Source of the DNA: an uncultured Flavobacteriaceae bacterium
Lineage (GTDB): Bacteria; Bacteroidota; Bacteroidia; Flavobacteriales; Flavobacteriaceae
NCBI GenBank assembly: GCA_947502495.1
Contig: CANNAC010000001.1
Span: forward strand, 930,906-994,905
DNA length: 64,000 nt
Reading direction: 5' to 3'
Positions 15,147 through 31,329 of this stretch are shown here, piece after piece; the stretch's first letter is position 1, and every line of letters begins with the position of its first letter. A program made the position numbers and the translations under genes. The notes beneath the pieces were generated by a model. The model was not told the origin of the DNA. It was given only the letters and a program-made list of their open reading frames with translations, and ran no database searches.

Positions 15147-15189
15147 TAAACAAGTTAATACAAATTTGGTTCATTAAATCCGAAATATC

Positions 15190-16347
15190 ATGACTTTACT
15201 ATCTAAAAAAGAAATAGCCAACTTACATCATATCCATCAAGAAAATTGTATTTCAATTTTTATACCTACACACAGATTAGGAAAAGAAGTACTACAAGAG
15301 GAGGATTCTTTATCCTTAAAAATACAGTTACAACAAGTAAAAAAAAAATTAGCAAAAAAAGGAATTCATAAAACCACTATTGATACTATTACGGCACCAG
15401 TTCAGAAATTAATAGATGACAATTTGTTTTGGAGACAACAATCCGATGGTTTAGCTATTTATATAGCCGAAAATTATTTTCAAAAATATACCCTTCCTAT
15501 TTATTTTGAAGCCTATAATTATATCTCAAATTCATTTTACCTAAAACCTTTGATGCCACTTTTTGTTGATGATGGTCGTTTTTATTTAATGACATTAGAA
15601 TTAGGTAAGGTTAAATTATATGAATGTACTCAGCATAGTATTACCGAAATTATTATCGATGATTTAATACCTAAAAATCAACAAGACATTGTTGGTTATG
15701 ATTACGAAGAAAAAAATCTGCAATTTAGAACACTGCAAGCTGGTATAGGACAAGCAATGTTCTATGGGCAAGAAGCTGCTACAGGAAAAAGAAAAAATGA
15801 AATCAAAACATATTTCAGAGCTATTAATGATGGTCTTAAACCAATCTTAAAAGATGAAAACATCCCCTTAGTTGTAGCATCTCAAGACTATCTTTTTGAT
15901 ATTTACAAAAGCGTAAATACATACTCAAATTTCTCTACCAAAAACATCAATAATCATCTTAAAGCCAAAGATATTTTAGATGTACATGAGATAGCTTGGG
16001 AAGCTATATCCCCTACTTTTGACCAAGAAAGAAAAGATAAAATAACACGTTTCTTAGAAACACAAGGCACAGGGAAAACAGCTATTGAAATAGAAATAAT
16101 ATTACCTAGCGCTTTTGAAGGGAAAGTTGATACATTATTCTGTGAAAATCTAGAAGATATTTTTGGGATATATAAATTAGAAAATGACATCATAACTATT
16201 ACCGAAACTGAAGAAAATGATACAACGACCTCATTGATGAATCTGGCAGCCATAAAAACATTTTTAAATGGCGGTTCTGTTTATTTGATAGACAAAGAAG
16301 AGATGCCTAATCCAAATTCAAAAATCAATGCGCTTTTTAGATATTAA
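15190..16347 (+). CDS. baeRF-family (bacterial/archaeal eRF1-like) protein
   Basis: 385-aa protein of the eRF1-like superfamily found in bacteria (baeRF). Recognisable features are the N-terminal CISIFIPTHRLGKEVLQEED segment, the central LFVDDGRFYLMTLELGKVKLYE beta unit, and the C-terminal Rossmann-like part ending FLNGGSVYLIDKEEMPN. Such proteins are proposed to act on stalled or hibernating ribosomes, but no bacterial member here has a GGQ motif that I can see. Ends 3 nt before the next gene, so the two are an operon under site F. Confidence 0.78.
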   Translation: MTLLSKKEIANLHHIHQENCISIFIPTHRLGKEVLQEEDSLSLKIQLQQVKKKLAKKGIHKTTIDTITAPVQKLIDDNLFWRQQSDGLAIYIAENYFQKYTLPIYFEAYNYISNSFYLKPLMPLFVDDGRFYLMTLELGKVKLYECTQHSITEIIIDDLIPKNQQDIVGYDYEEKNLQFRTLQAGIGQAMFYGQEAATGKRKNEIKTYFRAINDGLKPILKDENIPLVVASQDYLFDIYKSVNTYSNFSTKNINNHLKAKDILDVHEIAWEAISPTFDQERKDKITRFLETQGTGKTAIEIEIILPSAFEGKVDTLFCENLEDIFGIYKLENDIITITETEENDTTTSLMNLAAIKTFLNGGSVYLIDKEEMPNPNSKINALFRY

Positions 16348-17524: not shown

Positions 17525-17548
17525 TAGATATAAATCGATTTGAAAAAG

Positions 17549-19960
17549 ATGAAAGTACATATTAAAAAGTTCAATGAAATTAGTATCAAAGATGTGGATA
17601 CGGTAGGTGGAAAAAATGCATCTTTAGGAGAAATGCACAATCAATTAACCTCAAAAGGTGTTGCTATACCCAATGGTTTTGCAACTACCTCGTATGCATT
17701 TTGGGAGTTTTTAAAAGACAATAAAATTGAAGCTCCTCTAAAACAACTGCTCACAAAACTCAAAAGGAAAGACTATTCCAATTTAGAAACTATTGGAGAA
17801 CAAGCACGAGAACTTATTTTAAAAGGAAGTTTTTCATCTGCATTTAACCAAGATATCATAAAATCGTATACCTGTTTAAATAATAAAGGTCTAAAAGCGG
17901 TTGCAGTAAGAAGTAGTGCAACAGCCGAGGATCTTCCAGATGCTAGTTTTGCAGGGCAACACGAAACCTATTTAAATATAAAAGGAGAAGTGGCATTATT
18001 AGAAGCCGTAAAAAAATGCTTTGCATCCTTATATACCGATCGTGCTATAAAATACCGGGAAGATAAAGGCTTTGAACATCATACTATTGCTTTATCCGTT
18101 GGTGTACAACTTATGGTACGTGCAGACAAAGGCTGTTCTGGTGTAGGTTTCACTATTGATCCAGAATCAGGTTTTGAAAATGTTATTGTATTATCTGGTG
18201 TTTGGGGATTAGGTGAAAACATTGTGCAAGGCACTGTGAATCCAGATGAATATTATGTCTTTAAACCTAGTTTAGCAAAAGGTAAATATCCTATTATTCA
18301 AAAAAAAATGGGCGATAAAAAATTGACGATGATTTATGCCAACAAACAAAAAAATAAAACTATCGTAAACTCAAAAACACCTTCCAATAAACAATTACAA
18401 TTTGTATTGACAGATGAGGAAATTATAAAACTTTCTAATTGGGCAAAACTAATAGAAGACCATTACCAAAAACCTATGGATATAGAATGGGCAAAAGATG
18501 GTATCACAAATCAGTTATTCATCACGCAAGCTAGACCAGAAACAGTACACCAAATAAGAAATAGAAGTATTCATATGGAATACCAACTCTTAGAAAAAGG
18601 AGAAATTATATCCAAAGGAAATGCTGTAGGTTCTAAAATAAAAGTAGGGAAAGCATGCTTTTTAAAATCGCCTAAAGATATTGATTATTTAGCGCCAAAT
18701 ACTATTATTGTTACCGACACTATTACACCAGACTGGGATCCTCTATTAAAGCAAGTTGCTGGTATTGTTACCAATAAAGGAGGTAGAACCAGTCACGCAG
18801 CCATTGTAGCTAGAGAGTTAGGAGTACCTGCAATTGTGGGATGCGGAAATGCGACACATAACATTAAAAATGGTACTATGATTACCATTTCTTGTGCTCA
18901 GGGAAAAACAGGATATATCTATCTAGGTCAATTAGCTTTTAAGAAAGAAGAAATAGATTTTTCTAATATTAAAATGCCAAATACCGAAATAAAAATAATT
19001 CTCGCAGATCCTGAAAATGCCTTTCCCTTATCTTTTTATCCTAACGATGGTGTGGGACTATTAAGAATAGAATTTATCATAACCCACAATGTCAAGATTC
19101 ATCCTATGGCATTAGTGAAATTTGATGAACTAACAGATATTCCACTAAAAAAAGAAATTACAAAAATCACCGAAACTTATAAAGACAAAAAAGAATATTT
19201 TGTAGATAAATTATCACAAGGAATAGCAACCATTGCAGCCGCCTTTTATCCAAAAGAAGTAATTGTTAGACTAAGTGATTTTAAGACTAATGAATATGCC
19301 AATTTAATAGGAGGAAAAGATTTTGAACCTCATGAAGAAAACCCAATGTTAGGCTTTAGAGGGGCATCACGTTATTACAATGTTTTATATAAAGCAGGTT
19401 TTGCGTTAGAATGTCAAGCTATTAAAAAAGTACGAGAACAAATGGGACTCACAAATCTAAAAGTTATGATTCCATTTTGTAGAACCTTAGAGGAAGGCAA
19501 AAAAGTAATAGCTACAATGGTCAAAAATGGGTTGAAGCAAAGTGAAAATGGATTAGAAATTTATACCATGATTGAAATTCCGAGCAACGTTATTTTAGCT
19601 CAAAAATTCGCTGAGATATTTGATGGATTTTCTATTGGATCTAACGACCTAACTCAACTTACATTAGGTATAGATAGAGATTCAGAATTAATGGGCGAAC
19701 TATTTAATGAAAACGATCCCGCTGCAAAACAAATGATTAAAATGGCCATACAATCGGCTAAAAAAACACAGACTAAAATAGGGTTATGCGGACAAGCACC
19801 AAGTGATTTTCCAGAATTTGCCACCTTTTTAGTTAAAGAAGGTATAGGTAGTATTTCGTTTAATCCAGATGCCCTGTTGCAAGGTATTGAGAATATTAAT
19901 AAAGCGGAAGAAAGTTTGAAACCCGCTAACGAAAACAATGACTATATTTTTTATAAATAA
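17549..19960 (+). CDS. ppsA: Phosphoenolpyruvate synthase
   Basis: 803-aa enzyme converting pyruvate and ATP to PEP, AMP and phosphate. Domains: N-terminal ATP-grasp/pyruvate-phosphate-dikinase part (residues about 10-330; VRSSATAEDLPDASFAGQHET), swivelling phosphohistidine domain with GGRTSHAAIVARELGVPAIVG (about 410-430), and C-terminal PEP-binding TIM barrel with LRIEF, RGASRYY and the catalytic Cys in GLCGQAPSD near the end. Start taken at ATG 17549; a TTG three codons upstream is possible but less likely. Controlled by site H. Its presence in the regulon suggests that gluconeogenic flux or an adenylate-pool role matters under the inducing condition. Confidence 0.93.
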   Translation: MKVHIKKFNEISIKDVDTVGGKNASLGEMHNQLTSKGVAIPNGFATTSYAFWEFLKDNKIEAPLKQLLTKLKRKDYSNLETIGEQARELILKGSFSSAFNQDIIKSYTCLNNKGLKAVAVRSSATAEDLPDASFAGQHETYLNIKGEVALLEAVKKCFASLYTDRAIKYREDKGFEHHTIALSVGVQLMVRADKGCSGVGFTIDPESGFENVIVLSGVWGLGENIVQGTVNPDEYYVFKPSLAKGKYPIIQKKMGDKKLTMIYANKQKNKTIVNSKTPSNKQLQFVLTDEEIIKLSNWAKLIEDHYQKPMDIEWAKDGITNQLFITQARPETVHQIRNRSIHMEYQLLEKGEIISKGNAVGSKIKVGKACFLKSPKDIDYLAPNTIIVTDTITPDWDPLLKQVAGIVTNKGGRTSHAAIVARELGVPAIVGCGNATHNIKNGTMITISCAQGKTGYIYLGQLAFKKEEIDFSNIKMPNTEIKIILADPENAFPLSFYPNDGVGLLRIEFIITHNVKIHPMALVKFDELTDIPLKKEITKITETYKDKKEYFVDKLSQGIATIAAAFYPKEVIVRLSDFKTNEYANLIGGKDFEPHEENPMLGFRGASRYYNVLYKAGFALECQAIKKVREQMGLTNLKVMIPFCRTLEEGKKVIATMVKNGLKQSENGLEIYTMIEIPSNVILAQKFAEIFDGFSIGSNDLTQLTLGIDRDSELMGELFNENDPAAKQMIKMAIQSAKKTQTKIGLCGQAPSDFPEFATFLVKEGIGSISFNPDALLQGIENINKAEESLKPANENNDYIFYK

Positions 19961-19972
19961 CGAATAAACTAC

Positions 19973-20015
19973 TGACGTATATCATTTTGAAATTGCAAAG
20001 TTTTTGATTCCTTTA
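19973..20015 (+). promoter_or_regulatory. Island operator + promoter (site I)
   Basis: TGACGTATATCA at 19973-19984, 23 nt, then TTCCTTTA at 20008-20015 (weak -7). Precedes the DUF2267 gene with a leader of about 100 nt. Confidence 0.65.
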
Positions 20016-20120
20016 ATGAGCATTCCAATTTTGCTGTACTATATATCATAATTACCTTATTTATTAAATAATATAGCAGAATATGATTTAAAAATACGTC
20101 AAACTTAAAATCAAGATACT

Positions 20121-20570
20121 ATGTCACTAAATTTTAATCAATATGCAGCAGAAGGAAACACGTTTCTAAAAAAATATGCTAAAGAGTTACAAATCTCTGA
20201 AGATCCAGAAAGAGCAGGTCGTGTACTTAGTTCTATTTTACATGGCTTACGTTCTATAATCTCAGTGGAAGAATCTTTACAGTTTATTTCGCAGCTTCCT
20301 ATGTTTTTAAAAGCAGTTTATGTAAATGGCTGGTCCATTAAAACAAATAAGAAAAAAGTAAAAAACATGGAAGATTTTATAGATTTAATTAGATCCATAG
20401 ATGGCAAAACATCCTTACATGATTTTGAGTCTGATGAGATTGCTGAAGATTATATATACGCAACATTCTTTATTTTAAGAATGTATGTTTCCAGTGGTGA
20501 AATGGAAGATATAAAAGGAGAGTTACCAAAACGATTAAAAGGTCTTATTTTCGATCACATATTTATTTAG
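20121..20570 (+). CDS. DUF2267 family protein
   Basis: 149-aa soluble, helical protein. Matches DUF2267 across most of its length: NTFLKKYAKELQI..DPERAGRVLSSILHGLRSIIS, then FISQLPMFLKAVYVNGW. DUF2267 proteins are often found in stress or anoxia gene clusters and have no assigned biochemical role. Followed directly by the non-coding RNA array. Confidence 0.8.
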   Translation: MSLNFNQYAAEGNTFLKKYAKELQISEDPERAGRVLSSILHGLRSIISVEESLQFISQLPMFLKAVYVNGWSIKTNKKKVKNMEDFIDLIRSIDGKTSLHDFESDEIAEDYIYATFFILRMYVSSGEMEDIKGELPKRLKGLIFDHIFI

Positions 20571-20626
20571 GAACAATGAAATATTTTAAACATTTATTTA
20601 AGATAAATCTAAAAAAACACTCCTAC

Positions 20627-20669
20627 TGATCTAGGTCAGTTTATATAGTAAAAATGGGTTGTAAATTGC
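20627..20669 (+). promoter_or_regulatory. Island operator + promoter of ncRNA unit 1 (site J)
   Basis: TGATCTAGGTCA at 20627-20638, 23 nt, then TAAATTGC at 20662-20669. Confidence 0.83.
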
Positions 20670-20674
20670 AGTAT

Positions 20675-21060
20675 AATTAATAAAATAGTTCTTTGAAAGT
20701 ATAAAATATAGGTTCTTGATGTAGTAATGCATCAATGAGACCTTAGGTGTTAAAATATGCTTGAAAGCTTTATGCTTATTGCTTTTCTTCGTAAAGAAGT
20801 GAACGCAAAATCAGATTAAGACTATAAAGTAATTACTACACCAGTAATCTGGGACATTTAATTGTCCCAGATTATTTTTAAACATTAGTTATACATGCTG
20901 AAAAGTAATTATAACCAGTTTGAAAAGATTCAAATTGTTTTACTAAAGTTAATATTTCTAAAACACCGGAAATGGAAGTTTTAATAGGTTAATTGAACAT
21001 AAAATCAAAAGGAATCATTTCAGAAGGAAACTGGAAGCTTTAACTTCTGGTTTCTATTAA
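20675..21060 (+). ncRNA. Structured ncRNA, unit 1 (about 385 nt)
   Basis: Start inferred about 6 nt after the -7 box; end at the terminal hairpin. Elements: boxA-like TAGTTCTTTGAAA (20686-20698); 5' hairpin 20710-20743 (AGGT..TTGATG / CATCAA..ACCT); internal terminator-like hairpin 20846-20873 (AATCTGGGACA / TGTCCCAGATT, then ATTTTT); GNRA hairpin 20888-20915 (GTTAT..GCT-GAAA-AGT..ATAAC); terminal hairpin 21027-21054 (GAAACTGGAAG / CTTCTGGTTTC, with two G-U pairs). A second CAGATTA at 20812-20818 can pair with TAATCTG at 20845-20851 in competition with the internal hairpin. No matching RNA family is known to me. Confidence 0.75.
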
Positions 21061-21073
21061 AAAAACCGCAATT

Positions 21074-21116
21074 TGACCTAGGTCAGTTGATACTCAAAAA
21101 ACCAGTTGTAAATTGC
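21074..21116 (+). promoter_or_regulatory. Island operator + promoter of ncRNA unit 2 (site K)
   Basis: Perfect palindrome TGACCTAGGTCA at 21074-21085, 23 nt, then TAAATTGC at 21109-21116. Confidence 0.84.
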
Positions 21117-21121
21117 TATAA

Positions 21122-21410
21122 AATTAAAAAAATAGTTCTTTGAAAGAATAAAAAAGATTTTTGATTTACAAATACAGTAAAAACGTAGAAGTTTTTATAA
21201 AATATCGGTTTTTTATATGATAGTATTTTAAATAATAGGGTAGATAAATTACTTGCTATTAATCAAATTTACCCAACTAAAAAGATTGAAATTATTAATT
21301 GAAATAGATTTTTTTGTATTCTTTGGAATATTTTATTAGATCGATTAGAAATAAAGAAATCAACCTTTTTAATGAAACTGGAGGCTTCCGCTTCCAGTTT
21401 CTATTTTAAA
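21122..21410 (+). ncRNA. Structured ncRNA, unit 2 (about 290 nt, divergent)
   Basis: Keeps the operator, the -7 box, boxA-like TAGTTCTTTGAAA (21133-21145) and the terminal hairpin 21374-21401 (GAAACTGGA / TCCAGTTTC). It lacks the GGGACA hairpin and the GNRA hairpin of the other units. A different inverted repeat, GGGT...AAATT / AATTT...ACCC, occupies the middle (21238-21274). It may be a degenerate copy or one with a new specificity. Confidence 0.62.
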
Positions 21411-21423
21411 AAAATACGCAACA

Positions 21424-21466
21424 TGACCCTGGTCAGTTCTGTTTATAAAAAGCAATTGTAAATTGT
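21424..21466 (+). promoter_or_regulatory. Island operator + promoter of ncRNA unit 3 (site L)
   Basis: TGACCCTGGTCA at 21424-21435, 23 nt, then TAAATTGT at 21459-21466. Confidence 0.83.
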
Positions 21467-21471
21467 ATTAT

Positions 21472-21860
21472 AATTAAAAACATAGTTCTTTGAAAATATA
21501 AAAACATAAATTCTTACTGTACATGTGCAGAAGAATTTAAGATTGTAAATCGTACTTAAAGGGTTTAAGGGTATTGTGTTGACTTTGTAATAAAGTATAT
21601 GCAAGACATAATTAATTCTATAAGGAGTGCTTTGCATCATTAATCAGGGATATTTAAGTGTCCCTGATTATATTAAAGTATTGGTTTATAACTGCTGTAA
21701 AGCAAGTGTAACCAATAGGAAGCGATTAAATTTGTTTTACTAAAATGGATGTTTTCTAAAATTCCATAAATGGAAGTTTTGATTGGTTGATTGGACGTAC
21801 AAATAAAAAGAATCGTCTCTAAAGGAAACTGGAAGTTTTGGCTTCCAGTTTCTATTTTAA
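21472..21860 (+). ncRNA. Structured ncRNA, unit 3 (about 390 nt)
   Basis: boxA-like TAGTTCTTTGAAA (21483-21495); 5' hairpin 21508-21538 (AAATTCTT.CTG / CAG.AAGAATTT); internal hairpin 21641-21670 (TAATCAGGGA / TCCCTGATTA); GNRA hairpin 21681-21715 (TTGGTT..TGCT-GTAA-AGCA..AACCAA); terminal hairpin 21825-21852 (GAAACTGGAAG / CTTCCAGTTTC), then TATTTT. Helix sequences differ from unit 1 while pairing is kept, for instance GGGACA/TGTCCC against CAGGGA/TCCCTG. Confidence 0.75.
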
Positions 21861-21876
21861 AAAATATTACTTAGAC

Positions 21877-21919
21877 TGACCTAGGTCAGTTTATATACTA
21901 AAAAGCAATTGTAAATTAG
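21877..21919 (+). promoter_or_regulatory. Island operator + promoter of ncRNA unit 4 (site M)
   Basis: Perfect palindrome TGACCTAGGTCA at 21877-21888, 23 nt, then TAAATTAG at 21912-21919. Confidence 0.84.
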
Positions 21920-21924
21920 CAGTA

Positions 21925-22295
21925 TATTTAATACGTTAGTTCTTTGAAAATATAAAAACAGAGGTTCCTGTTGTAGCAGTACAACATTAGCCTTAAGTGT
22001 CAAGCTATTCTTAAAAGCCTTAAACTTATCATATTGGCTTTGTAATGAAGTTCATGTAATATCAGATTAAGTCTATAAAGAATGTTTAGCACTTGTAATC
22101 TGGGACAGTTAAATGTCCCAGATTATTTTATAATATTGGTTTTCAACTGCTGTAAAGCAAGTGTAACCAAAATGAAGTGATTACTATTGTTTTTACTAGG
22201 TCTGATATATTCTAATGTAAGAAAAAGGATATTTTAGAGTAATTATAAATAGTCCCTTCATTAGAAAACGGGAGGCTTTGGCTTCCCGTTTTTGA
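21925..22295 (+). ncRNA. Structured ncRNA, unit 4 (about 370 nt)
   Basis: boxA-like TAGTTCTTTGAAA (21937-21949); 5' hairpin 21962-21993 (AGG..GTTGT / ACAAC..CCT); internal hairpin 22097-22124 (AATCTGGGACA / TGTCCCAGATT); GNRA hairpin 22136-22170 (TTGGTT..TGCT-GTAA-AGCA..AACCAA); terminal hairpin 22267-22290 (AACGGGA / TCCCGTT) and TTTTT. As in unit 1, an upstream CAGATTA (22063-22069) could compete for TAATCTG (22096-22102). Read-through would enter the protease gene at 22333. Confidence 0.75.
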
Positions 22296-22332
22296 TTTAT
22301 CACAATACGCTAACTGAATTGAACTTAAAATA

Positions 22333-23358
22333 ATGAATAAACGATGTCTTTCCATATTTATCTTATTTACTATTACTGTAAATTCACAAAACCTTTCCAA
22401 AGTTTATGATGAAGTAAAATCATCTGTTGTAGTCATCAATATTATAACTATTGAACCGAGAAAAGTTAATGATGATTTAAATTTATTAGCAAAAGCCACA
22501 CAAGGATCTGGTGTATTAATCTCTGACGATGGTCTTATATGGACTGCTTCTCATGTAGTGCAGTCTGCAGAAATGGTTCAAGTAGAATTTTTAGATGGTG
22601 AGGTTTACGAAGCTAGTGTTTTGTCATCAAACCCGATGGCAGATGTTGCATTGATTAAAATCAAAGGCAAATTTGACCTAAAGAACAAAAAGGTTGTAAA
22701 AATCGGTAATTCCAATATGCAAAACATTGGAGATGATATTTTTGTGATAGGTGCACCTTTTGGTATTAAACAATCTCTATCCAAAGGTATTATTAGCGGT
22801 AAGCACTATCCAGACCCTTTAAAAAATAGTTTGATTAATATTGAATTCATTCAAACCGATGCTGCCATCAATCATGGAAATTCGGGAGGTCCAATGTTTA
22901 ATATGAAAGGGGAAGTTATAGGAATTACTAGCCGAATTCATAGTGGTTCAGGAAGTTTTAACGGCATTGGTTTTGCCATTTCCTCTAATACAGCCAAAAG
23001 GCTATTAATGGATGAGCCTAATATTTGGTCGGGAATGAATTTTATACTAGTAACAGGGGGTATTGCTGAAGCTTTAAATATCCCCCAAGAATCTGGATTA
23101 CTCGTACTCAGTTTATCTTCTAAAGGAGCAGCCAGCAAAATTGGTCTTAGAGGTGGTTTTATTGAAGCAACTATTGATGGTGTAGAACTCTTAATTGGTG
23201 GTGATATTATTTTAGATTTTGTCAATGTAAATTTTAGCCAACCCAACTTCCAACATCTAATAAAGAAAAAATTGGAAACGTACAAAAAAGGAGATAACCT
23301 TTCAATGACTATCTTAAGACAAGGTAAAATAATTAACATTGAATTTATCAAGCAATAA
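22333..23358 (+). CDS. HtrA/DegP-like serine protease with one PDZ domain
   Basis: 341-aa exported trypsin-like protease for envelope quality control. A signal peptide covers residues 1-18. The catalytic triad is visible as His in TASHVV, Asp in MADVALIKI and Ser in GNSGGP. The C-terminal ~110 residues form a PDZ-like domain (SGLLVLSLSSKGAASKIGLRGG, IGGDIILDF). Shorter than DegP, with only one PDZ, closer to DegS/HhoB in size. No operator of its own is seen in the 40 nt after ncRNA unit 4, so expression may depend on read-through of the array. Confidence 0.9.
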   Translation: MNKRCLSIFILFTITVNSQNLSKVYDEVKSSVVVINIITIEPRKVNDDLNLLAKATQGSGVLISDDGLIWTASHVVQSAEMVQVEFLDGEVYEASVLSSNPMADVALIKIKGKFDLKNKKVVKIGNSNMQNIGDDIFVIGAPFGIKQSLSKGIISGKHYPDPLKNSLINIEFIQTDAAINHGNSGGPMFNMKGEVIGITSRIHSGSGSFNGIGFAISSNTAKRLLMDEPNIWSGMNFILVTGGIAEALNIPQESGLLVLSLSSKGAASKIGLRGGFIEATIDGVELLIGGDIILDFVNVNFSQPNFQHLIKKKLETYKKGDNLSMTILRQGKIINIEFIKQ

Positions 23359-23398
23359 CAGGAATTCCTTTCCATTTTAAAATCATTTAAACGTAGTA

Positions 23399-23869
23399 TT
23401 AAAGAAAACCAAATTCATTTTTATCTCCTCTAAAGATTAACAAATAACTACCGCTGTTCAATTGTTTTAAATAAGTTGTTGCTTGTGCATCACTCGCACC
23501 TATTCCTCTAAAAACGCTATAACTTCCAGAAGATAATGTAGCTAAAGGCTTTCCATTAATTCTATGAAGAAATGTAGTTACTAAAGGCCCTACAATAAAA
23601 ATAAATCCACTTTTTGGATTATAAAAAATTCCAAAATTCACGGTCTTACCCAATATGTCTTTCCAATACGACCTTATAACAGTAGTATCCTTAGAAGACA
23701 TCATGTCTTTATCGCTACAAAATTGGTTTACTTTTCCTAGAATAGAAACCTGAAAAAGAGAAGTGCTCTCTTCTTTTAAATGTTTCATTGCTTTTTCTAA
23801 TTTAGAGAGTTCATTATAGGCTTTAAAATAAATTTGTTTTTGCTTTATGTAGTACTTATCTGAAGTCAT
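23399..23869 (-). CDS. Hypothetical soluble protein
   Basis: 156-aa protein. It has a charged N-terminal helix (about residues 10-38, YFKAYNELSKLEKAMKHLKEES) and a C-terminal part with alternating strands and Gly-rich turns (GFIFIVGPLVTTFLHRI, SGSYSVFRGIGASDAQATTYLKQL, GSYLLIFRGDK). The layout recalls general-stress proteins with a ferredoxin-like half-domain, but I cannot assign a family. Own promoter at site N; convergent with the HtrA-like gene. Confidence 0.65.
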   Translation of the reverse strand: MTSDKYYIKQKQIYFKAYNELSKLEKAMKHLKEESTSLFQVSILGKVNQFCSDKDMMSSKDTTVIRSYWKDILGKTVNFGIFYNPKSGFIFIVGPLVTTFLHRINGKPLATLSSGSYSVFRGIGASDAQATTYLKQLNSGSYLLIFRGDKNEFGFL

Positions 23870-23904
23870 TATTAAAAAATATGGTCATAAATCAATTTAT
23901 AGAT

Positions 23905-23947
23905 TTAAGGTAAGCTGTTCTATACAAGTTATGAATGATGCAGGTCA
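23905..23947 (-). promoter_or_regulatory. Island operator + promoter (site N)
   Basis: TGATGCAGGTCA at 23936-23947 (TGACCTGCATCA on the minus strand, same as site B) with minus-strand -7 box TACCTTAA at 23912-23905, 23 nt away. Confidence 0.8.
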
Positions 23948-24078
23948 ATTAGAGTAAAACTTTACCCCTATGAATTGTTAAAGTCATATAAAACGTTATC
24001 AATTAATATGTATCATTTTGTAAAAAAACTCTTTACTTTAATAGTACATAGACAATAACAACTTAAATAATTAATATC

Positions 24079-24201
24079 ATGAATAATAATAATAATAATA
24101 ATAATAATGGAAATCTATGGATATTTTTTATTAATAGAACGGCCATTGGTTATGCTACTAAGGCTTTTAGAAAATGCTATCTGAAATTCAAAAGAATATG
24201 A
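24079..24201 (+). CDS. Small basic peptide with poly-Asn start (40 aa), putative
   Basis: ATG at 24079 opens a 40-codon frame: Met, nine Asn codons (an AAT microsatellite), GNLWIFFINRTAIGYATKAF, then RKCYLKFKRI and stop. It would be a short membrane-associating, cationic peptide. A degenerate operator-like sequence TAATATGTATCA (24004-24015) with TAATAGTA 23 nt downstream (24039-24046) could drive it, but the first half-site lacks the G. May be a chance ORF. Confidence 0.35.
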   Translation: MNNNNNNNNNGNLWIFFINRTAIGYATKAFRKCYLKFKRI

Positions 24202-24376
24202 ATCATTATGCCTTTTTAGTTCAAAAACTTGTTTTTTGGGCTTCATATTTGCCTCATAAAATTAATAAAACACACTAAATTTTGTTGATTAATTTGTAAA
24301 TTAATTTCTTGAAAATTTAAAGTGAAGTAAATTAAAGCTCATATTTTAAAAATATTTGAAACCAATAAAACAAAAA
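24202..24376. other. AT-rich leader of the hybrid kinase gene
   Basis: No gene seen and no TGAY-N4-RTCA operator, so the kinase appears to be outside the regulon. Confidence 0.4.
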
Positions 24377-26677
24377 ATGGAAGATGAGAATATAGATTCT
24401 GACAGCTACAACGTAAATGAAGAATACAAGATAAGCGAGGACCACTTTTACAAAATATTTGAAGGGATAACACTTGGGTTTGCATTATGTGAACTTATTC
24501 TTGATAAACATGGAAATCCAAAAGATTATCGATTTCTTAGAATGAACCCAGCATTTGAAAAACAATCAGGAATGAAAATTACTTCAACTGTAGGCAAAAC
24601 TGTTAAAGACATATATCCTGATATAGAACAATCTTGGATTGATAGATATGGTTCTACTGTAATTAATAACAAACCAATTCATTTTATTGATTATAACCAT
24701 AATACTAATAAAACATACAGCGTTAATGCACATTCTTTTTCAGAGAACAAGTTTGTAATTTTTTTTGAGGACATAACAGAACTAACAAAATCAAAAGAAG
24801 ATTTTATAAAGAGTGAACAGCAATATGAGCAGCTTTTTAATTCTATGATGGAAATGTTCCAGGTCATTAAGCTCATTTATGATAAAGACGGCAATGCTAT
24901 TGATTATATATATCTTAAAGTAAATCGTGCTTTTGAACAATTAGTGAATAAGAAAAAAGAGGAGTTAATTGGTAAGCAAGCGAAAGAAGTATTTAGCATT
25001 GTGGAAGAGCATTGGATAAAAACATATGAAAGAGTAGAAAAAACTGGAGATCCTGAAAAATTCGAAAACTATGGAGCAGAGCTTGACAAGTATTATCAAA
25101 TTTATGCTTGGAAAGTAGACAAAGAGCAAGTCGCGATAGTTTTTACAGATATTACAAAAACCAAAAAAGATCAAGATGCATTATTGAAGAGTGAAAAACA
25201 AAACAAAAAATATATTCAAATGCTTAACGAAGCACAACGCCTCGTTAAAATTGGTAATTGGGAATGGAATTTACTTACCAACGAAATTAAATGGTCAGAC
25301 ACAATGTATGAATTATTGGGCTATAAACCAAAGTCTGTAGAATCTTCGTATGCACTGGCTCTTAAACATGTTCATCCTGACGACAAGGAAGGCTATGAGA
25401 AAAAATTAGAAGAATCTATATCGAATAAAACAGCTTATTATTTTGAAAATAGGATTGTAAAAAAAGACACTACGGTTATTTCAGTAATCTCTAAAGGAAT
25501 TTGTTTTCTAGACAATAATAATAACCTTGTTCGTATGGTTGGTACAGTGCAAGATATTAGTTCTCAAAAACTTATAGAAAAAAAGTTTTTAGAACATCAA
25601 AAACTTACAGCTCTAGGTGAAATGGCGGCTTCCATTGCTCATGATTTTAACAACGCTTTACAGTCCATGATAGGTAATTTGGAAATAGTCAAATTACAAA
25701 ACAATATATCAGATTCCAGCTTAGAGCGATTAAATAATATAGGGTCTACAATAACGGATGTGGCTGGCAGAGTTAATGCATTACAACGTTTTGGTAAAAT
25801 AAATAATAGTAGTGAAACCGAGTGCATTAGCCTTAATTCAATTATAGAAGAAAGTATAAAACAATCACGTCCTTTATGGAAAGATAATATGGAAAAAGAA
25901 GGATTGACGGTTAAGATTATCACAGATTATGGCAACATTCCAAAAATTAATGGTATTCATGGTGAATTAAAAACAGTTATCCATAATTTAATTAAAAATA
26001 GTATAGAAGCCATGCCAGAAGGTGGAGGTATCTATATTAAAACCAGCTTAAAACCCGAAGGCATATTTATGACCTTTACAGATACAGGTATAGGAATGGA
26101 TGAAGAAACCGAACTAAAAATATTTCAACCTTTTTATACTACAAAAGGATTTGAAGCAGGTAGAGGACTAGGAATGAGTGGTGTATATAATGTTATAAAA
26201 AGACATCATGGAGATATCAAAATAAAATCTTCTGAAATTGGTAAAGGAACGACCATCGAAATTATTCTACCACGAAGTAAAGTGAATAATATAAATGATA
26301 TTAAAGAAGATGTGCTAAATAATGAAATATCTTTAAATGTTTTATGGGTAGATGATGAAATAACTATTCGGGAAAACGCAAGTGATTTGATAGAATTAAT
26401 AGGTCACAAATGCGACATAGCAGATGGAGGTGACAATGCATTACAACTTCTAAAAATGAATAAATATGATGTCATATTTACAGATATTGGTATGCCAAAT
26501 ATGAATGGTTGGCAATTAGCCGATGCTATAAGAAAAAAGGTTGGGAATAAAATAAAAATCGTTATTGTAAGCGGTTGGGATATTAATGAAGATACTAAAA
26601 AGAAACAGGATGTTAATTTTGTTTTGCAAAAACCTTTTACACTAAAAGAACTTGAAAGAATAATAATAAATATCTAA
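24377..26677 (+). CDS. PAS hybrid histidine kinase with C-terminal receiver
   Basis: 766-aa cytoplasmic sensor kinase without membrane segments. Domains: three PAS/PAC units (about residues 22-135, 147-262, 275-400), a dimerisation/phosphoacceptor helix with His422 in EMAASIAHDFNNALQ, an ATPase domain (N box NLIKNSIEAM, G1 DTGIGMD, G2 GRGLGMSGVYN), and a receiver with the phosphoacceptor Asp703 in FTDIGMP. The SIAHDFNN H-box is typical of NtrB-like/HWE-adjacent hybrid kinases. Start taken at ATG 24377 rather than the in-frame TTG at 24356. It faces the regulator operon across a 284-bp gap, so it could feed phosphate into the receiver-Crp protein; that is inference. Confidence 0.88.
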   Translation: MEDENIDSDSYNVNEEYKISEDHFYKIFEGITLGFALCELILDKHGNPKDYRFLRMNPAFEKQSGMKITSTVGKTVKDIYPDIEQSWIDRYGSTVINNKPIHFIDYNHNTNKTYSVNAHSFSENKFVIFFEDITELTKSKEDFIKSEQQYEQLFNSMMEMFQVIKLIYDKDGNAIDYIYLKVNRAFEQLVNKKKEELIGKQAKEVFSIVEEHWIKTYERVEKTGDPEKFENYGAELDKYYQIYAWKVDKEQVAIVFTDITKTKKDQDALLKSEKQNKKYIQMLNEAQRLVKIGNWEWNLLTNEIKWSDTMYELLGYKPKSVESSYALALKHVHPDDKEGYEKKLEESISNKTAYYFENRIVKKDTTVISVISKGICFLDNNNNLVRMVGTVQDISSQKLIEKKFLEHQKLTALGEMAASIAHDFNNALQSMIGNLEIVKLQNNISDSSLERLNNIGSTITDVAGRVNALQRFGKINNSSETECISLNSIIEESIKQSRPLWKDNMEKEGLTVKIITDYGNIPKINGIHGELKTVIHNLIKNSIEAMPEGGGIYIKTSLKPEGIFMTFTDTGIGMDEETELKIFQPFYTTKGFEAGRGLGMSGVYNVIKRHHGDIKIKSSEIGKGTTIEIILPRSKVNNINDIKEDVLNNEISLNVLWVDDEITIRENASDLIELIGHKCDIADGGDNALQLLKMNKYDVIFTDIGMPNMNGWQLADAIRKKVGNKIKIVIVSGWDINEDTKKKQDVNFVLQKPFTLKELERIIINI

Positions 26678-26961: not shown

Positions 26962-28032
26962 CTAACCAAACAACTCAATATTTTCAAGGGCTTCTTTGTC
27001 TTTTATTACTATTTTTCTAGCACTGCCAATGGTTATTAAACCTTCATTCTTAAATTCGGTGAGCATGCGAATGGCTGTTTCTGTTGCTGTACCAATAAGA
27101 CCTGCAAAATCCTCTCTGGCAATGCTTATACCATTATTTTCGTTATTGAGTAAAATACATTTATTATGTATATCCAATAAGGCTTTTGCTACACGTTGTC
27201 TTACCGTTCCAAAAGCCACATTTATCAATTGTTCTTGTACTTCTATCAAATTATTAGAAATTATACTCACAAACTTATTGGCAACCTCTTTGTTTGAGTG
27301 TAAAAGTGTTGTAAAATCAGATTTCGGAATTTCATAAAGTTCTGCATCTTCAAGTATTGTAGCAGACTCTATATAGCTTCCATGATCTGACAATAAAGAT
27401 AGCTGGCCCACAAAATGATTAGCGCTGCACAAGCTTGTAACAAATTCCTTCCCTTTTTCGGTGGTTTTATAGGTCTTTACAGCACCACTTTGTATAAAAT
27501 ACAAACAATTAGCCTTGTTTCCTTCCCTATAGAGCACGGTTCCTTTATTATATTTTTGGGGTGTATAATCTCTAGATAAATGGTCTAAATCCAAATAGTT
27601 TGAAGCTGCTTTAATAAATTGTCTTACACCTTCAATGGATTGGGAATATTGCTGTTTTAAAAAATCATATTTTTTCAGACGGCATTCTATAGCTTCTAAC
27701 AATTCCTTTTCACTAAAAGGCTTGGTTAAATAATCATCTGCACCCAAATTCATGCCTTTTCGCATGTCTATTTTTTCTGTTTTAGCAGTTAGAAAAATAA
27801 ATGGAATACTAACTGTTTTGATGTTTTTGTTTAAATCTTGCAACACTTCATACCCATCTAGTTCTGGCATCATAATATCACACACAATAACATCTGGAAG
27901 TAGTTTTTTTGCCTTTTGAACACCTACCTTTCCGTTTTCGGCTGTTGCAGTACTATAACCTGCAAGCTCAAGAATGTCTGCTGTATTTTCGCGAACAATC
28001 TCATTGTCTTCTATAATCAGTACTTTTTTCAT
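26962..28032 (-). CDS. Receiver-Crp/Fnr fusion transcription regulator
   Basis: 356-aa regulator. Residues 1-122 are a receiver with phosphoacceptor Asp52 (CDIMMP) and Lys104 (LTKPF). About 140-260 are a cyclic-nucleotide-binding-type barrel, and 265-350 a Crp-type winged helix-turn-helix (SIAREDFAGLIGTATETAIR). In the recognition helix Glu318 and Arg322 stand where CRP has Glu181 and Arg185, the residues that read TGA/TCA. The CRP Arg180 position is Thr317, which argues against a TGTGA target. No Fe-S cysteine cluster is visible, unlike FNR. Second gene of the operon with the LOV kinase (27-nt gap). Best candidate for the protein that binds the island operators. No operator of this type precedes its own operon. 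Confidence 0.9.
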   Translation of the reverse strand: MKKVLIIEDNEIVRENTADILELAGYSTATAENGKVGVQKAKKLLPDVIVCDIMMPELDGYEVLQDLNKNIKTVSIPFIFLTAKTEKIDMRKGMNLGADDYLTKPFSEKELLEAIECRLKKYDFLKQQYSQSIEGVRQFIKAASNYLDLDHLSRDYTPQKYNKGTVLYREGNKANCLYFIQSGAVKTYKTTEKGKEFVTSLCSANHFVGQLSLLSDHGSYIESATILEDAELYEIPKSDFTTLLHSNKEVANKFVSIISNNLIEVQEQLINVAFGTVRQRVAKALLDIHNKCILLNNENNGISIAREDFAGLIGTATETAIRMLTEFKNEGLITIGSARKIVIKDKEALENIELFG

Positions 28033-28059: not shown

Positions 28060-31000
28060 TTATTTATCATCTATCGGTAATTCAACCCAAAACGTTGTGC
28101 CTTTATTTAGCTTACTTACAAAACCAATAGTCCCTCCCATTAGCTTGGTATAGTGCCTGGCTATATTTAATCCTAAACCTGTTCCTTCAATATTTACAGC
28201 ATTATTTGCTCTAAAAAAACGATTAAACAATTGCTTCTGTTCTTCTAGCGAAATACCAATACCACTATCTTTAATTTCTATCAAAACCTTATGGTTGCTT
28301 TGCCCTATTTTTAAATTTATAATCGTATTTTCTGCAGAGTATTTTGATGCATTAGATAAGAGATTGGTAATTATATGACGAAGTAATTTAGCATCTAAAT
28401 ATACAAATAGACGTAACAGACTTGTATCAAAAGTGATTTGCTGTGTTTTTTTTAGACTCCCTTTTATTTCTTTAATCAAAATTTTAGAAAAATGAATAAT
28501 ATCAAAATGTTCCTTTACGGCTTTAGTTTTACCCTCTTCTAATTTACTTAATGAGAGAAAATCGTTTAAAATAGTGACAAGGTGATTTACATTCTGTTCA
28601 ATTTGTAAGACATATTTTTCTCTTTTGGTCTCATTTCCAGATCCATTTAGTCTCCCTATTAAAATCGCAGAGGTTAGTATTGCACTTAGTGGTGTTCTAA
28701 ACTCATGGGATGCCGTAGATACAAAACGCGATTTTAGTTGGTTTAATTCTTGCTCTTTTTTTAGTGCATTTTGTATATTAAATTCAATTTCCTTTTGCTG
28801 TGAAATATTATTAAAAACCATTAAGGCATTTGATATTTGATTATTCTCATCAAATAAAGGTGCTGTATTTACTGAGAAGTATTTATTTTTATATTCAATT
28901 TCAAAAGAGAGATGCGTTCCAGCGATTGTTTTAGAAATGTATTCTTTTATTATTGCTTTTCGTTCTTCCACAAAAATAGAAAGATCATCAAGCATCATAC
29001 CTTCAAAAATAAGCGGTTTTAAACCAAGGTGATCTAAGGCTTCACCTTCGGCTAAAACTAATTGAAAATCTTTATTTATTACAACAATAAAGCCTTTTGG
29101 AAAATTTCTTGCAATTGCCGTAGTAATTGATTTACTAATAATAGTTTCACTTTCTGCTTGTTTGGTAATCTGTATTTGATCTTCAAGATTAAGATTAGTA
29201 ACAACCAACTCTTGTACAGTTGACATAACCTCTTGCGTGCGCTCTTTTATTTTTTCTTCTAATTGCTTAGCGTATATTTCTAACTGATTTTTGTTTTCAT
29301 TTAATACAATAGAATTGTTATGTTTTTCAATAGCAATACTTGCCAGGTGGGTCATGTCTAAAAGCATTTCTTTTTCGTTAGCTAAAGGTTGTCTTGCAAA
29401 TAAGCTGTAAAAACTTAATACGCCCAGTACTTTATTGGTAGATGACATAATAGGAAATGCCCAACACGCTTTAAAACCATTTTTTAATGCTATATGTTTA
29501 TAATCTTCACAAAACACATTAGTTTCTATATTAGAAACAATAACTTCTCTTTTTAAAAACGCCGCCGCACCAAACGTGCCTGCTTTAGGACTAATAACAG
29601 TGCCATCAATAAAATCCCAGAATGTTTTTGGTAAATTTGGTGCCGCTAATATATTTAAGGTCTTATCCACTTTGTTCAATAGCAAAATACTACCATTGCA
29701 ATCTTTAAGATGTATTTCTGCTGTATTAATAATTTTTTTAGTAATGGTCTTTAAAGGCTTGTCTTGAGCTATTAATACCAATATTTTTTGGATTCTATTT
29801 TTAAAATCTTCTGCCTTTATCTTTTTTGTAACATCATTTTGCACACCTATAAAGTGCGTTAATTTATTTTCGTTATTACATACTGGTGTAATGGTAACAT
29901 CGTTCCAAAACAATGTTCCATCTTTTCTGTAATTACGCAATACAACATTACAAGCTTCGCCTTTTGCGATAGCCTTTTTCATTATATTAATCTCTTTTTG
30001 ATCTCTGTCATCGCCTTGTAAAAAATTACAGTTTCTGCCATAAACTTCGTCTTTTTTATAGCCAGTGATTTTTTCAAAAGCAGTATTGCAGTAAATAATT
30101 GGTACATTTGGTTTTTGTACATCGGCAATTGTAATGCTGTTACTTGCAGAAGTCAAAGCATTGTTTTTTATTTTAAGTTGTGCGTCCTTTTCTCTTTCTT
30201 TTGTGACGTCTCTAACAATAGTGATAAGCTTATTATCGTTCATAAGTAAAACACGAGCCTCAAAATGCTTTATTATTTCTTTCATTTTAAGACTGCACTC
30301 TACAACCTGCATAGTACCAGAAGCTTTAGCTTCTTTATGTGATACTATTATTTTTTTATATATAGATGTAGGTAAAATGTCTTTCATGTTTTTACCAATG
30401 ATTTTTTCGGGTGTAGTAATTAAGTTTTCGTGACTTTTGGCATACCAGTCTATATAGTTACCCTCACGATCTTGTACAAACATCATATCTGGCATGGCTT
30501 CTAAAAGTGCTTTTATTTTTGCTTCATTATGAAGTAGTTGTGCTTCTGTTTCTTTTTGAGTTGTGATATCTGTTATAAACCCTTCTAGAGCGATTACCTT
30601 ATTTTGATTGTTATAAACTGCTTCGCCTTTTTCCCATACATATTTTATACTCTCATTTTTATGCTGAATGCGATACTCACAATCATATGGCTTTTTTTGT
30701 TTTATGGCAGTTTGAATATGTTCCCAAACATTATGGCGATCTGCTTCTAAAATGAGCTGACCGTAATTTATAATTTCATTTTTAAAATCAGTAAAAGCGT
30801 ATCCTGTAATCTCTAAACAACCTTCACTAATATAATGCATGGTATAATCTTTATTATTTGTACATCGAAACAAAATACCCTTGATGTTATTAATTAAAGC
30901 ATCAAATATTCGATTATTTTCTATTAGCTTATTATTAGTTTGTTTAATTTTCAAAAGATTTTCATTTCGATTGGTTATATCTCGCAAAAAAATAAAGTTT

Positions 31001-31329
31001 ACATTTTTACCATCAATTATTGTATTACTTAACCTAATTTCTAAACTAAATGTTCTTCCATCTTTTTTGATTCCTATTACTTCAAGATCTTTATTAATCG
31101 TTTTGTTTTTCGAGTTTGTGATGTGTTTTAAAAGTTGTTCTCTATTTTTTTCTGTTAAAAGAATTTCTAAGTTTTTACCTAATAAATTATCAGAATTAAT
31201 ACCAAACAGATTATGACATGCAGGATTTGCAAGTAAAATAGTTGCTTCATTATCTACCACTAAAACACCTTCCTTTGTTAACTGAAACATATTTTGAAAA
31301 AGACCTTCATTTTGCAGACTACCTATCAT
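28060..31329 (-). CDS. Multi-PAS/LOV/GAF sensor histidine kinase
   Basis: 1089-aa cytoplasmic kinase. Domains in order: PAS (about 10-120), PAS/PAC (140-258), PAS (270-378), LOV-type PAS (385-505), GAF (515-672), coiled coil (675-725), PAS (735-848), HisKA with His875 in STASHEFRTP, and HATPase (NLLSNASKY, DSGIGI, GTGLGLNIA). The LOV unit has GRNCNFLQG with Cys434, Asn466 (RNYRKDG), Asn476 (FWN) and Gln497 (IGVQ), the residues that hold and photoreact with flavin. The usual Arg of NCRFLQ is Asn435 here. Directly upstream of the receiver-Crp gene in one operon, so they very likely form a two-component pair. Confidence 0.88.
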   Translation of the reverse strand: MIGSLQNEGLFQNMFQLTKEGVLVVDNEATILLANPACHNLFGINSDNLLGKNLEILLTEKNREQLLKHITNSKNKTINKDLEVIGIKKDGRTFSLEIRLSNTIIDGKNVNFIFLRDITNRNENLLKIKQTNNKLIENNRIFDALINNIKGILFRCTNNKDYTMHYISEGCLEITGYAFTDFKNEIINYGQLILEADRHNVWEHIQTAIKQKKPYDCEYRIQHKNESIKYVWEKGEAVYNNQNKVIALEGFITDITTQKETEAQLLHNEAKIKALLEAMPDMMFVQDREGNYIDWYAKSHENLITTPEKIIGKNMKDILPTSIYKKIIVSHKEAKASGTMQVVECSLKMKEIIKHFEARVLLMNDNKLITIVRDVTKEREKDAQLKIKNNALTSASNSITIADVQKPNVPIIYCNTAFEKITGYKKDEVYGRNCNFLQGDDRDQKEINIMKKAIAKGEACNVVLRNYRKDGTLFWNDVTITPVCNNENKLTHFIGVQNDVTKKIKAEDFKNRIQKILVLIAQDKPLKTITKKIINTAEIHLKDCNGSILLLNKVDKTLNILAAPNLPKTFWDFIDGTVISPKAGTFGAAAFLKREVIVSNIETNVFCEDYKHIALKNGFKACWAFPIMSSTNKVLGVLSFYSLFARQPLANEKEMLLDMTHLASIAIEKHNNSIVLNENKNQLEIYAKQLEEKIKERTQEVMSTVQELVVTNLNLEDQIQITKQAESETIISKSITTAIARNFPKGFIVVINKDFQLVLAEGEALDHLGLKPLIFEGMMLDDLSIFVEERKAIIKEYISKTIAGTHLSFEIEYKNKYFSVNTAPLFDENNQISNALMVFNNISQQKEIEFNIQNALKKEQELNQLKSRFVSTASHEFRTPLSAILTSAILIGRLNGSGNETKREKYVLQIEQNVNHLVTILNDFLSLSKLEEGKTKAVKEHFDIIHFSKILIKEIKGSLKKTQQITFDTSLLRLFVYLDAKLLRHIITNLLSNASKYSAENTIINLKIGQSNHKVLIEIKDSGIGISLEEQKQLFNRFFRANNAVNIEGTGLGLNIARHYTKLMGGTIGFVSKLNKGTTFWVELPIDDK

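Follow-up and report, generated by a model that had tools for sequence, protein, structure and literature searches.

Tandem structured RNAs behind a boxA-like element: an apparently new noncoding RNA family in Flavobacteriaceae

Our analysis of a 64,000-nucleotide (nt) stretch of DNA from an uncultured Flavobacteriaceae bacterium (contig CANNAC010000001.1; the whole stretch is referred to here as the window) revealed an array of structured RNAs in the 1.7 kb between a DUF2267 gene (20121-20570) and a gene for a trypsin-like protease (22333-23358). The array, at 20627-22293, consists of four head-to-tail units that together hold seven homologous RNA modules of approximately 165-185 nt each. The consensus fold of these modules, kept by compensating changes, defines an RNA family that is well supported. 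Each unit is headed by a palindromic box, a predicted promoter and an element resembling the boxA of ribosomal RNA (rRNA) leaders. We consider it fairly probable that the units give rise to stress-induced structured RNAs, made by a polymerase that is modified at boxA and acting through their fold.

Four tandem units and the fold of their modules

Direct repeats at 20612, 21059, 21409 and 21862 mark the four units, and every unit follows the same order: a palindrome near TGACC-N2-GGTCA (20627, 21074, 21424 and 21877), TAAATTG or TAAATTAG, then AGTTCTTTGAAA, and a final hairpin. The initial annotation, made from the sequence, had described four head-to-tail units in a protein-free stretch, and both statements hold. 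A palindromic box and a terminal hairpin are present in each unit, and the plus strand carries no open reading frame (ORF) of at least 50 amino acids (aa) within 20570-22333; on the minus strand, the array contains one ORF of 65 aa (21443-21640) and another of 62 aa that enters from the right (22212-22400). Units 1, 3 and 4 have two modules each and unit 2 has one. No further copies of the units were found elsewhere in the same genome by DNA search. Each module is laid out as a 5′ hairpin (P1), a long rod (P2-P4) and a terminator-like hairpin (P5), as follows:

20627..20638, + strand, regulator box of unit 1, TGATCTAGGTCA
20662-20668, + strand, −7 element of unit 1, TAAATTG, with a start predicted at ~20674 from the Bacteroidota −7 consensus
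20687..20698, + strand, boxA-like element of unit 1, AGTTCTTTGAAA
20699..20874, + strand, RNA module 1A, with P1, rod and terminator-like hairpin P5 at 20845-20874
20878..21055, + strand, RNA module 1B, final hairpin at 21026-21055
21074..21085, + strand, regulator box of unit 2, TGACCTAGGTCA
21134..21145, + strand, boxA-like element of unit 2
21234..21401, + strand, RNA module 2B, the sole module of the shortened unit 2, final hairpin at 21374-21401
21424..21435, + strand, regulator box of unit 3, TGACCCTGGTCA
21484..21495, + strand, boxA-like element of unit 3
21495..21670, + strand, RNA module 3A, final hairpin at 21641-21670
21670..21853, + strand, RNA module 3B, final hairpin at 21824-21853
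21877..21888, + strand, regulator box of unit 4, TGACCTAGGTCA
21938..21949, + strand, boxA-like element of unit 4
21950..22125, + strand, RNA module 4A, final hairpin at 22096-22125
22130..22293, + strand, RNA module 4B, final hairpin at 22264-22293

Within the rod, a large internal loop separates an outer stem from a capped inner stem, and the loop at the tip of the rod is a GNRA tetraloop in 46 of the 52 aligned modules. Across the family the fold spans approximately 160-200 nt and occurs in one or more copies per transcript unit. The helices quoted in the initial annotation exist: TTGATG/CATCAA (unit 1), GTTGT/ACAAC (unit 4) and TTCTT.CTG/CAG.AAGAA (unit 3) form P1 of the first module, and the internal helices CTGGGACA/TGTCCCAG and CAGGGA/TCCCTG form its P5. 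The hairpin with GTAA or GAAA loops that had been taken for the third one is likewise present; however, units 1, 3 and 4 each have a second module that folds like the first, and the hairpin is the P1 of that module, not the third hairpin of one RNA.

When all 26 first modules were aligned together by sequence alone, the rod remained hidden, and therefore two alignments and iterative models were used; unit 2, Algibacter unit 1 and L034 were excluded from the module alignments because they are shortened (L and G numbers denote loci and genomes). Alignment A2, which is structure-blind, contains 10 first modules of the window's type and 45 pairs. Structure-blind as well, A3 contains 16 sequences of a Maribacter type (30 pairs) and A4 contains 11 of those 16 (54 pairs). 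In A2, 93.1% of the cells were paired and covariation reached 0.294, compared with 0.198 ± 0.013 after shuffling and at most 0.095 when the partners were slid. Both sides had changed with pairing kept in 15 of the 45 pairs (6.8 ± 1.6 shuffled, at most 6 slid). Two-sided changes were found in 18 of the 30 pairs of A3 (91.8% of cells paired; covariation 0.449, against 0.256 ± 0.017 shuffled and at most 0.155 slid), in 32 of the 54 pairs of A4 (88.9% paired; 0.445, against 0.247 ± 0.016 and at most 0.155) and in 51 of the 54 pairs of A5, the 52 modules aligned by model R2 and thus fitted to the model and biased towards it (90.2% paired; 68.5% after shuffling and no more than 54.8% after sliding); A3, A4 and A5 overlap in members, and their statistics are therefore not independent. 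Collectively, the structure-blind alignments A2, A3 and A4 and the model-fitted A5 supported the earlier proposal that covariation here is a sign of selection on RNA structure.

Three covariance models were used: R1 was built from A2, R2 from A4 only, and R3 from the 52 modules of A5, with 4B as the sole window module included. Bearing in mind that E values of home-made models are rough, R2 recognized first modules outside its training set in Saonia (6.7e-19), Kordia (2e-11), G246 (1.5e-9), Croceivirga (9.1e-8) and G090 (1.2e-7), and it matched the held-out window module 4B at 2.4e-7. Further matches of R2 to the window's type were weaker (Winogradskyella, 1.2e-5; module 1A, 9e-5; module 4A, 1e-4), and R1 matched across the types in Kordia (5.1e-6) and Croceivirga (3.1e-4). 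Behind the first modules, R2 detected later ones, each with its own final hairpin, namely the second and third of L037 (2.2e-7 and 4.9e-6), two in L022 (2.5e-7 and 5.9e-7) and three in L046, one of them weak; units of relatives can thus hold three or more modules. Under default filters, R3 retrieved all window modules but one (six of seven); once the filters were switched off in a search of 1.9 kb, it retrieved the full seven (E values from 4.2e-12 to 1.2e-4). The single module of unit 2, which is of the second kind, scored 8.8e-6 in the latter search and 0.001 with default filters. At E ≤ 1, R3 found nothing in 13 control loci (L024, L026, L039, L043, L044, L049-L055 and L107).

Several results of these searches call for caution. 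Matches on the minus strand reached 8.2e-7 with R1, 2.1e-5 with R2 and 1.6e-4 with R3; those inside arrays were set aside because they are produced by the self-complementary P5 hairpins. At this level of noise, the R1 match in Kordia, the R2 matches to 1A and 4A and the weakest R3 match, that to 3A at 1.2e-4, are not clear by score alone, but 3A is itself a member of A2 and hence of R1. Under default filters, 3A escaped R3, as did two of the three W. thalassocola first modules (L028) and the first one in G248. Moreover, its alignment of 1A and 4A omits six outer P2 pairs, and the outer rod therefore differs between the two types. The tie between the two module types rests on the stronger matches, on intermediates and on the shared position behind box and boxA.

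A search of 18000-25000 at Rfam 15 gathering cut-offs yielded no family above them and left the units unmatched; the lone sub-threshold match, CRISPR-DR36 (20.7 bits, cut-off 38), lies outside the units at 19876-19922. The pattern of box plus GTTCTTTGA was found in four other genomes among 397 Flavobacteriaceae-level genomes, and the box-GTTCTTTGAAA pattern retrieved 28 stretches from the GTDB genome collection. Twenty-two of these belong to Flavobacteriaceae (Maribacter, Winogradskyella, Kordia, Saonia, Algibacter, Subsaximicrobium, Gelidibacter, Pricia, Croceivirga, Ulvibacterium and uncultured ones), including three cut by the stretch end (L032, L035 and L036) and the weak L034 (R2, 0.011; R3, 0.0012). 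The other six (L024, L026, L039, L043, L044 and L049) were rejected as chance: they are titled as other phyla and show no such RNA downstream and no R3 match, L049 stopping directly after the pattern and hence lying outside the R3 test. By covariance model, the RNA was found in 19 of the 397 family-level genomes (16 by R2 and three more by R1), tallies that are lower bounds since strict filters were used. G293 (R1 E value of 8.6e-4, model positions 47-144 only) was dropped as doubtful, with no adjacent box or boxA seen. In an order-wide set that includes the same family, R2 matched three of 296 genomes, all labelled Flavobacteriaceae. The pattern search had no match in viral contigs. A DNA search of 60 genomes gave two matches besides the genome's own, and both were junk: L005 is a terminator and L006 is merely rich in A/T. 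In some genomes, several RNA units lie scattered, every one behind a box of its own, as in G317 (L076, L088 and L093) and one Maribacter metagenome-assembled genome (L027, L030, L036 and L037). We found no description of this RNA in the titles and abstracts that our literature searches listed, full texts of comparative-genomics papers being outside the scope of that search. With covariation, homologues from other genera that lie in related stress islands, and no Rfam 15 family, the modules bear out the initial annotation, which had called them an apparently new noncoding RNA (ncRNA) family.

Promoter boxes, the regulator and the boxA-like element

The regulated promoter that had been assigned to each unit is supported by the sequence, in that every unit has a palindromic box at a fixed distance to a putative −7 element. 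The window contains 45 box matches (both strands, at most two mismatches) against 15.6 expected, and all six perfect boxes of the 4.07-Mb genome fall inside one 60-kb stretch. The Bacteroidota promoter consensus is described as TAnnTTTG at −12 to −5 (PMC9723704). The distance between the start of the box and TAnnTT is exactly 35 nt in all four units, in 33 of 36 homologous units and in 11 of 14 regulon mRNA promoters (hand-picked from the listed box sites as those pointing at a gene). The start predicted from the consensus would lie 41.5 nt from the box centre and approximately 13 nt before the boxA-like element; a distance of 41.5 nt is the usual position of a CRP-type activator overlapping the promoter. 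Other genes of the island have the same TGACC-N2-GGTCA box, at the same spacing, as the unit promoters, and the island also encodes a CRP-type response regulator and a PAS/GAF kinase. The genes behind this box apparently form a regulon. Genes of the island and box sites in the window are:

17540..19960, + strand, PEP-synthase-like protein
20121..20570, + strand, DUF2267 protein
26962..28032, − strand, response regulator with a CRP-type DNA-binding domain, the likely activator of the boxes
28060..31329, − strand, PAS/GAF histidine kinase adjoining the response regulator
3515, box upstream of a WG-repeat protein gene
13282, box upstream of a BON-domain protein gene
15104, box upstream of a baeRF-family protein gene
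17442/17482, box upstream of the PEP-synthase-like protein gene
31856, box upstream of a patatin gene
37018, box upstream of a GH130 phosphorylase gene
44528, box upstream of an HSP20 gene

CRP-type regulators fall into two groups, a close one (at least 49% identity, in 28 of the 397 genomes) and a more widespread one with 41-48% identity among the matches listed. A close orthologue is present in 28 genomes, the RNA in 19 and both in 15 (Fisher 2.3e-16), although this value is weakened by an identity cut chosen after viewing the list and by related genomes that are not independent. Around the RNA in 33 loci, we counted PEP-synthase-like proteins (12), response regulators or kinases (12), universal-stress-protein-like (12), PfkB-like (10), phosphoribosyltransferase (9), DUF2267 (8) and pyridoxamine-oxidase-like proteins (8), numbers that are lower bounds because some loci are short. 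The neighbours termed universal stress protein, PfkB and acetate kinase are putative. The type of regulator and these neighbours resemble, and may point to, a low-energy, dormancy or low-oxygen programme. Elsewhere in the window (34992-36935), a single protein fuses protein-isoaspartate methyltransferase and erythromycin-esterase domains.

TAGTTCTTTGAAA has the look of a promoter element, but it sits downstream of the predicted start and is similar to boxA as found in flavobacterial 16S leaders. Of 21 units that were located through their fold, independently of the pattern, 16 contain AGTTCWTTRA with at most one mismatch, whereas shuffles gave a mean of 1.14 and a maximum of 5 in 200 rounds; this count omits L066, which belongs to G293, L092, which lies at a contig edge, and L094, which is a second module. 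On both strands of the window there are four exact copies, one per unit. In the regulon mRNA promoters, an exact copy occurs in none of 14 and a copy with one mismatch in two. The 16S leaders of relatives contain AGTTCATTAACATATTG (G020), AGTTCATTGAAAATATTG (G031), AGTTCTATTGACATATTG (G137), AGTTCATAAACATATTG (G248) and AGTTCATTTACATATTG (G404), and that of G038, from another family, contains AGTTCGTTTGAAATTATG; 16S matches came from these six genomes, with none in the window's own genome, G001 or G286. Variants of the element in the RNA units include AGTTCATTGAAA (G368), GGTTCATTGAAA (G189) and AGTTCATTTGACAT (G061). Some flavobacterial 16S leaders (L050 and L052) have two boxA-like sites approximately 145 nt apart, AGTTCTTTACAGTGTG or AGTTCATTTAGAGTGTG followed by AGTTCATTAACATATTG or AGTTCATAAACATATTG. 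A boxA-like GGTTCATTAA with one mismatch, which may be due to chance, lies at 15168-15177, where it belongs to the 5′ region of the gene for the baeRF-family protein (15190-16347); the box of this gene begins 64 nt away.

The link of the RNA to the regulator and to boxA is also loosened by several observations. Four RNA-positive genomes (G061, G189, G332 and G368) have no close orthologue of the regulator; their units still carry TGA-N6-TCA boxes. Conversely, 13 of the 28 regulator-positive genomes gave no RNA match under strict filters, and 12 gave none under the laxer R2 filters, which add G239. As for boxA, five of the 21 units have two mismatches, and in the three genomes that allow both to be read (G137, G248 and G404), the element of the RNA has AGTTC or GTTC in common with the 16S boxA but departs from it further on.

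Proposed course of events and its alternatives

From the sequence, we infer that the RNA is expressed, that boxA functions and that the product has an end function, in the following manner. The sensor kinase and the CRP-type response regulator of the island would switch on the units along with other island genes, a co-induction suggested by the box and the −7 spacing that they have in common and by the co-occurrence of regulator and RNA. The transcript would start at the position predicted some 13 nt upstream of the boxA-like element, where the NusB/S10 complex would probably load onto RNA polymerase as it does on rRNA; this loading might protect the untranslated transcript from early termination or aid its folding. 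The product would consist of one or more copies of the 160-200-nt fold, with its 5′ hairpin, a rod that is usually GNRA-capped in relatives and a terminator-like hairpin, and covariation shows this fold itself. In the last and weakest step, while the cell survives at low energy, the RNA would be a ligand that the ribosome, RNA polymerase or a protein recognizes by its shape, and would not present a base-pairing seed. Action through shape is most likely, since substitutions run freely through the stems, whereas the layout and the GNRA cap persist.

Base-pairing regulation is the strongest of the alternatives, yet we consider it improbable. According to this explanation, unpaired segments of the modules would be seeds against mRNAs, and the fold would serve stability and termination. 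Its appeal lies in the length, the terminator-like hairpins and the stress promoters, which are usual traits of small RNAs (sRNAs). A conserved flavobacterial sRNA, Rfp18, is moreover described as affecting protease mRNA levels (PMC9723704). However, conservation is not higher in unpaired columns than in paired ones (mean identity 0.60 and 0.65, respectively), which speaks for recognition of structure; the best-conserved unpaired bases are those of the GNRA loop and short UAA/AU stretches, and compensating changes preserve the rod.

Two proposals give the boxA itself a larger part, and we regard each of them as unlikely. The first is a decoy, in which many boxA copies on RNA would titrate NusB/S10 and slow rRNA synthesis in dormancy. 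It agrees with the element's likeness to rRNA boxA, with its presence in all four window units and in the 16 pattern-free relatives, and with a dosage increased by tandem units, but it leaves the conserved body and the later modules, which lack a boxA of their own, unexplained. The second, no better placed, is that of ribosome-style dormancy transcripts: a non-rRNA class needing Nus-modified polymerase, whose arrays of GNRA-capped modules would be made by readthrough of internal terminators and would re-route NusB/S10 or ribosomes from ribosome production at low energy.

A little less plausible still is that TAGTTCTTTGAAA is no boxA but serves a different sigma factor as a promoter element. 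It looks like TAnnTTTG in stretched form and is close to the promoter, and the 16S boxA of the same genome differs from it in part. Nevertheless, TAnnTT is already found at the distance used by 11 of the 14 regulon mRNA promoters, these promoters lack the element, and the variants AGTTCATTGAAA and AGTTCATTTGACAT of relatives look like rRNA boxA forms. Owing to the likeness to 16S leaders, the −7 spacing and the absence from mRNA promoters, we rank the promoter interpretation of TAGTTCTTTGAAA second to boxA.

We deem it very unlikely that the modules are 6S-like RNAs whose rod, with its internal loop, binds RNA polymerase. A rod with an internal loop, here a large one between the outer stem and the capped inner stem, is 6S-like in outline. 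This explanation is weakened by a separate 6S-Flavo RNA gene in the genome, which scores above the Rfam cut-off (C12:43529-43635), and the units gave no match to a 6S family even at E ≤ 5. Finally, a non-functional mobile repeat or decayed coding sequence, as tandem repeats and A+T-richness might suggest, is hardly credible given covariation, neighbours that recur across genera and no further copy in the genome.

Returning to structured RNAs that act through their shape, the family can be tested directly, with its probable regulon, recurring neighbours, strong covariation and carriers among Maribacter, Winogradskyella, Kordia, Saonia and Croceivirga. If its boxA works, it would represent ribosomal-type transcription of a short ncRNA in Bacteroidota and offer a handle on shutdown and survival.

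Relation to known systems

Rfp18 of Flavobacterium psychrophilum is, like the modules, a conserved structured flavobacterial sRNA, and it is set apart by description only, boxA and tandem units having no place in that description (PMC9723704). 6S-Flavo RNA (RF01685) is a flavobacterial structured RNA as well; it has its separate copy in the genome and no match to the units. GOLLD, ROOL and OLE are ncRNAs described as having a structure maintained by covariation; they are large single RNAs, in contrast to the arrays of ~180-nt modules found here, and the units have no Rfam match (PMC12286853). The boxA of rRNA leaders, described also for suhB, shares the core motif (GYTCTTTAANA in Escherichia coli, mostly GTTCTTTGAAA here), whereas the element reported here heads structured ncRNAs of a putative Flavobacteriaceae stress regulon (PMC5725501). 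A parallel is offered by DrrS/MTS1338 of Mycobacterium tuberculosis, an ncRNA of the DosR programme: it is described as DosR-activated, with a longer precursor and a structural stability element, and, compared by description only, it differs from the present family in that its abstract contains neither boxA nor tandem modules (PMC5360333).

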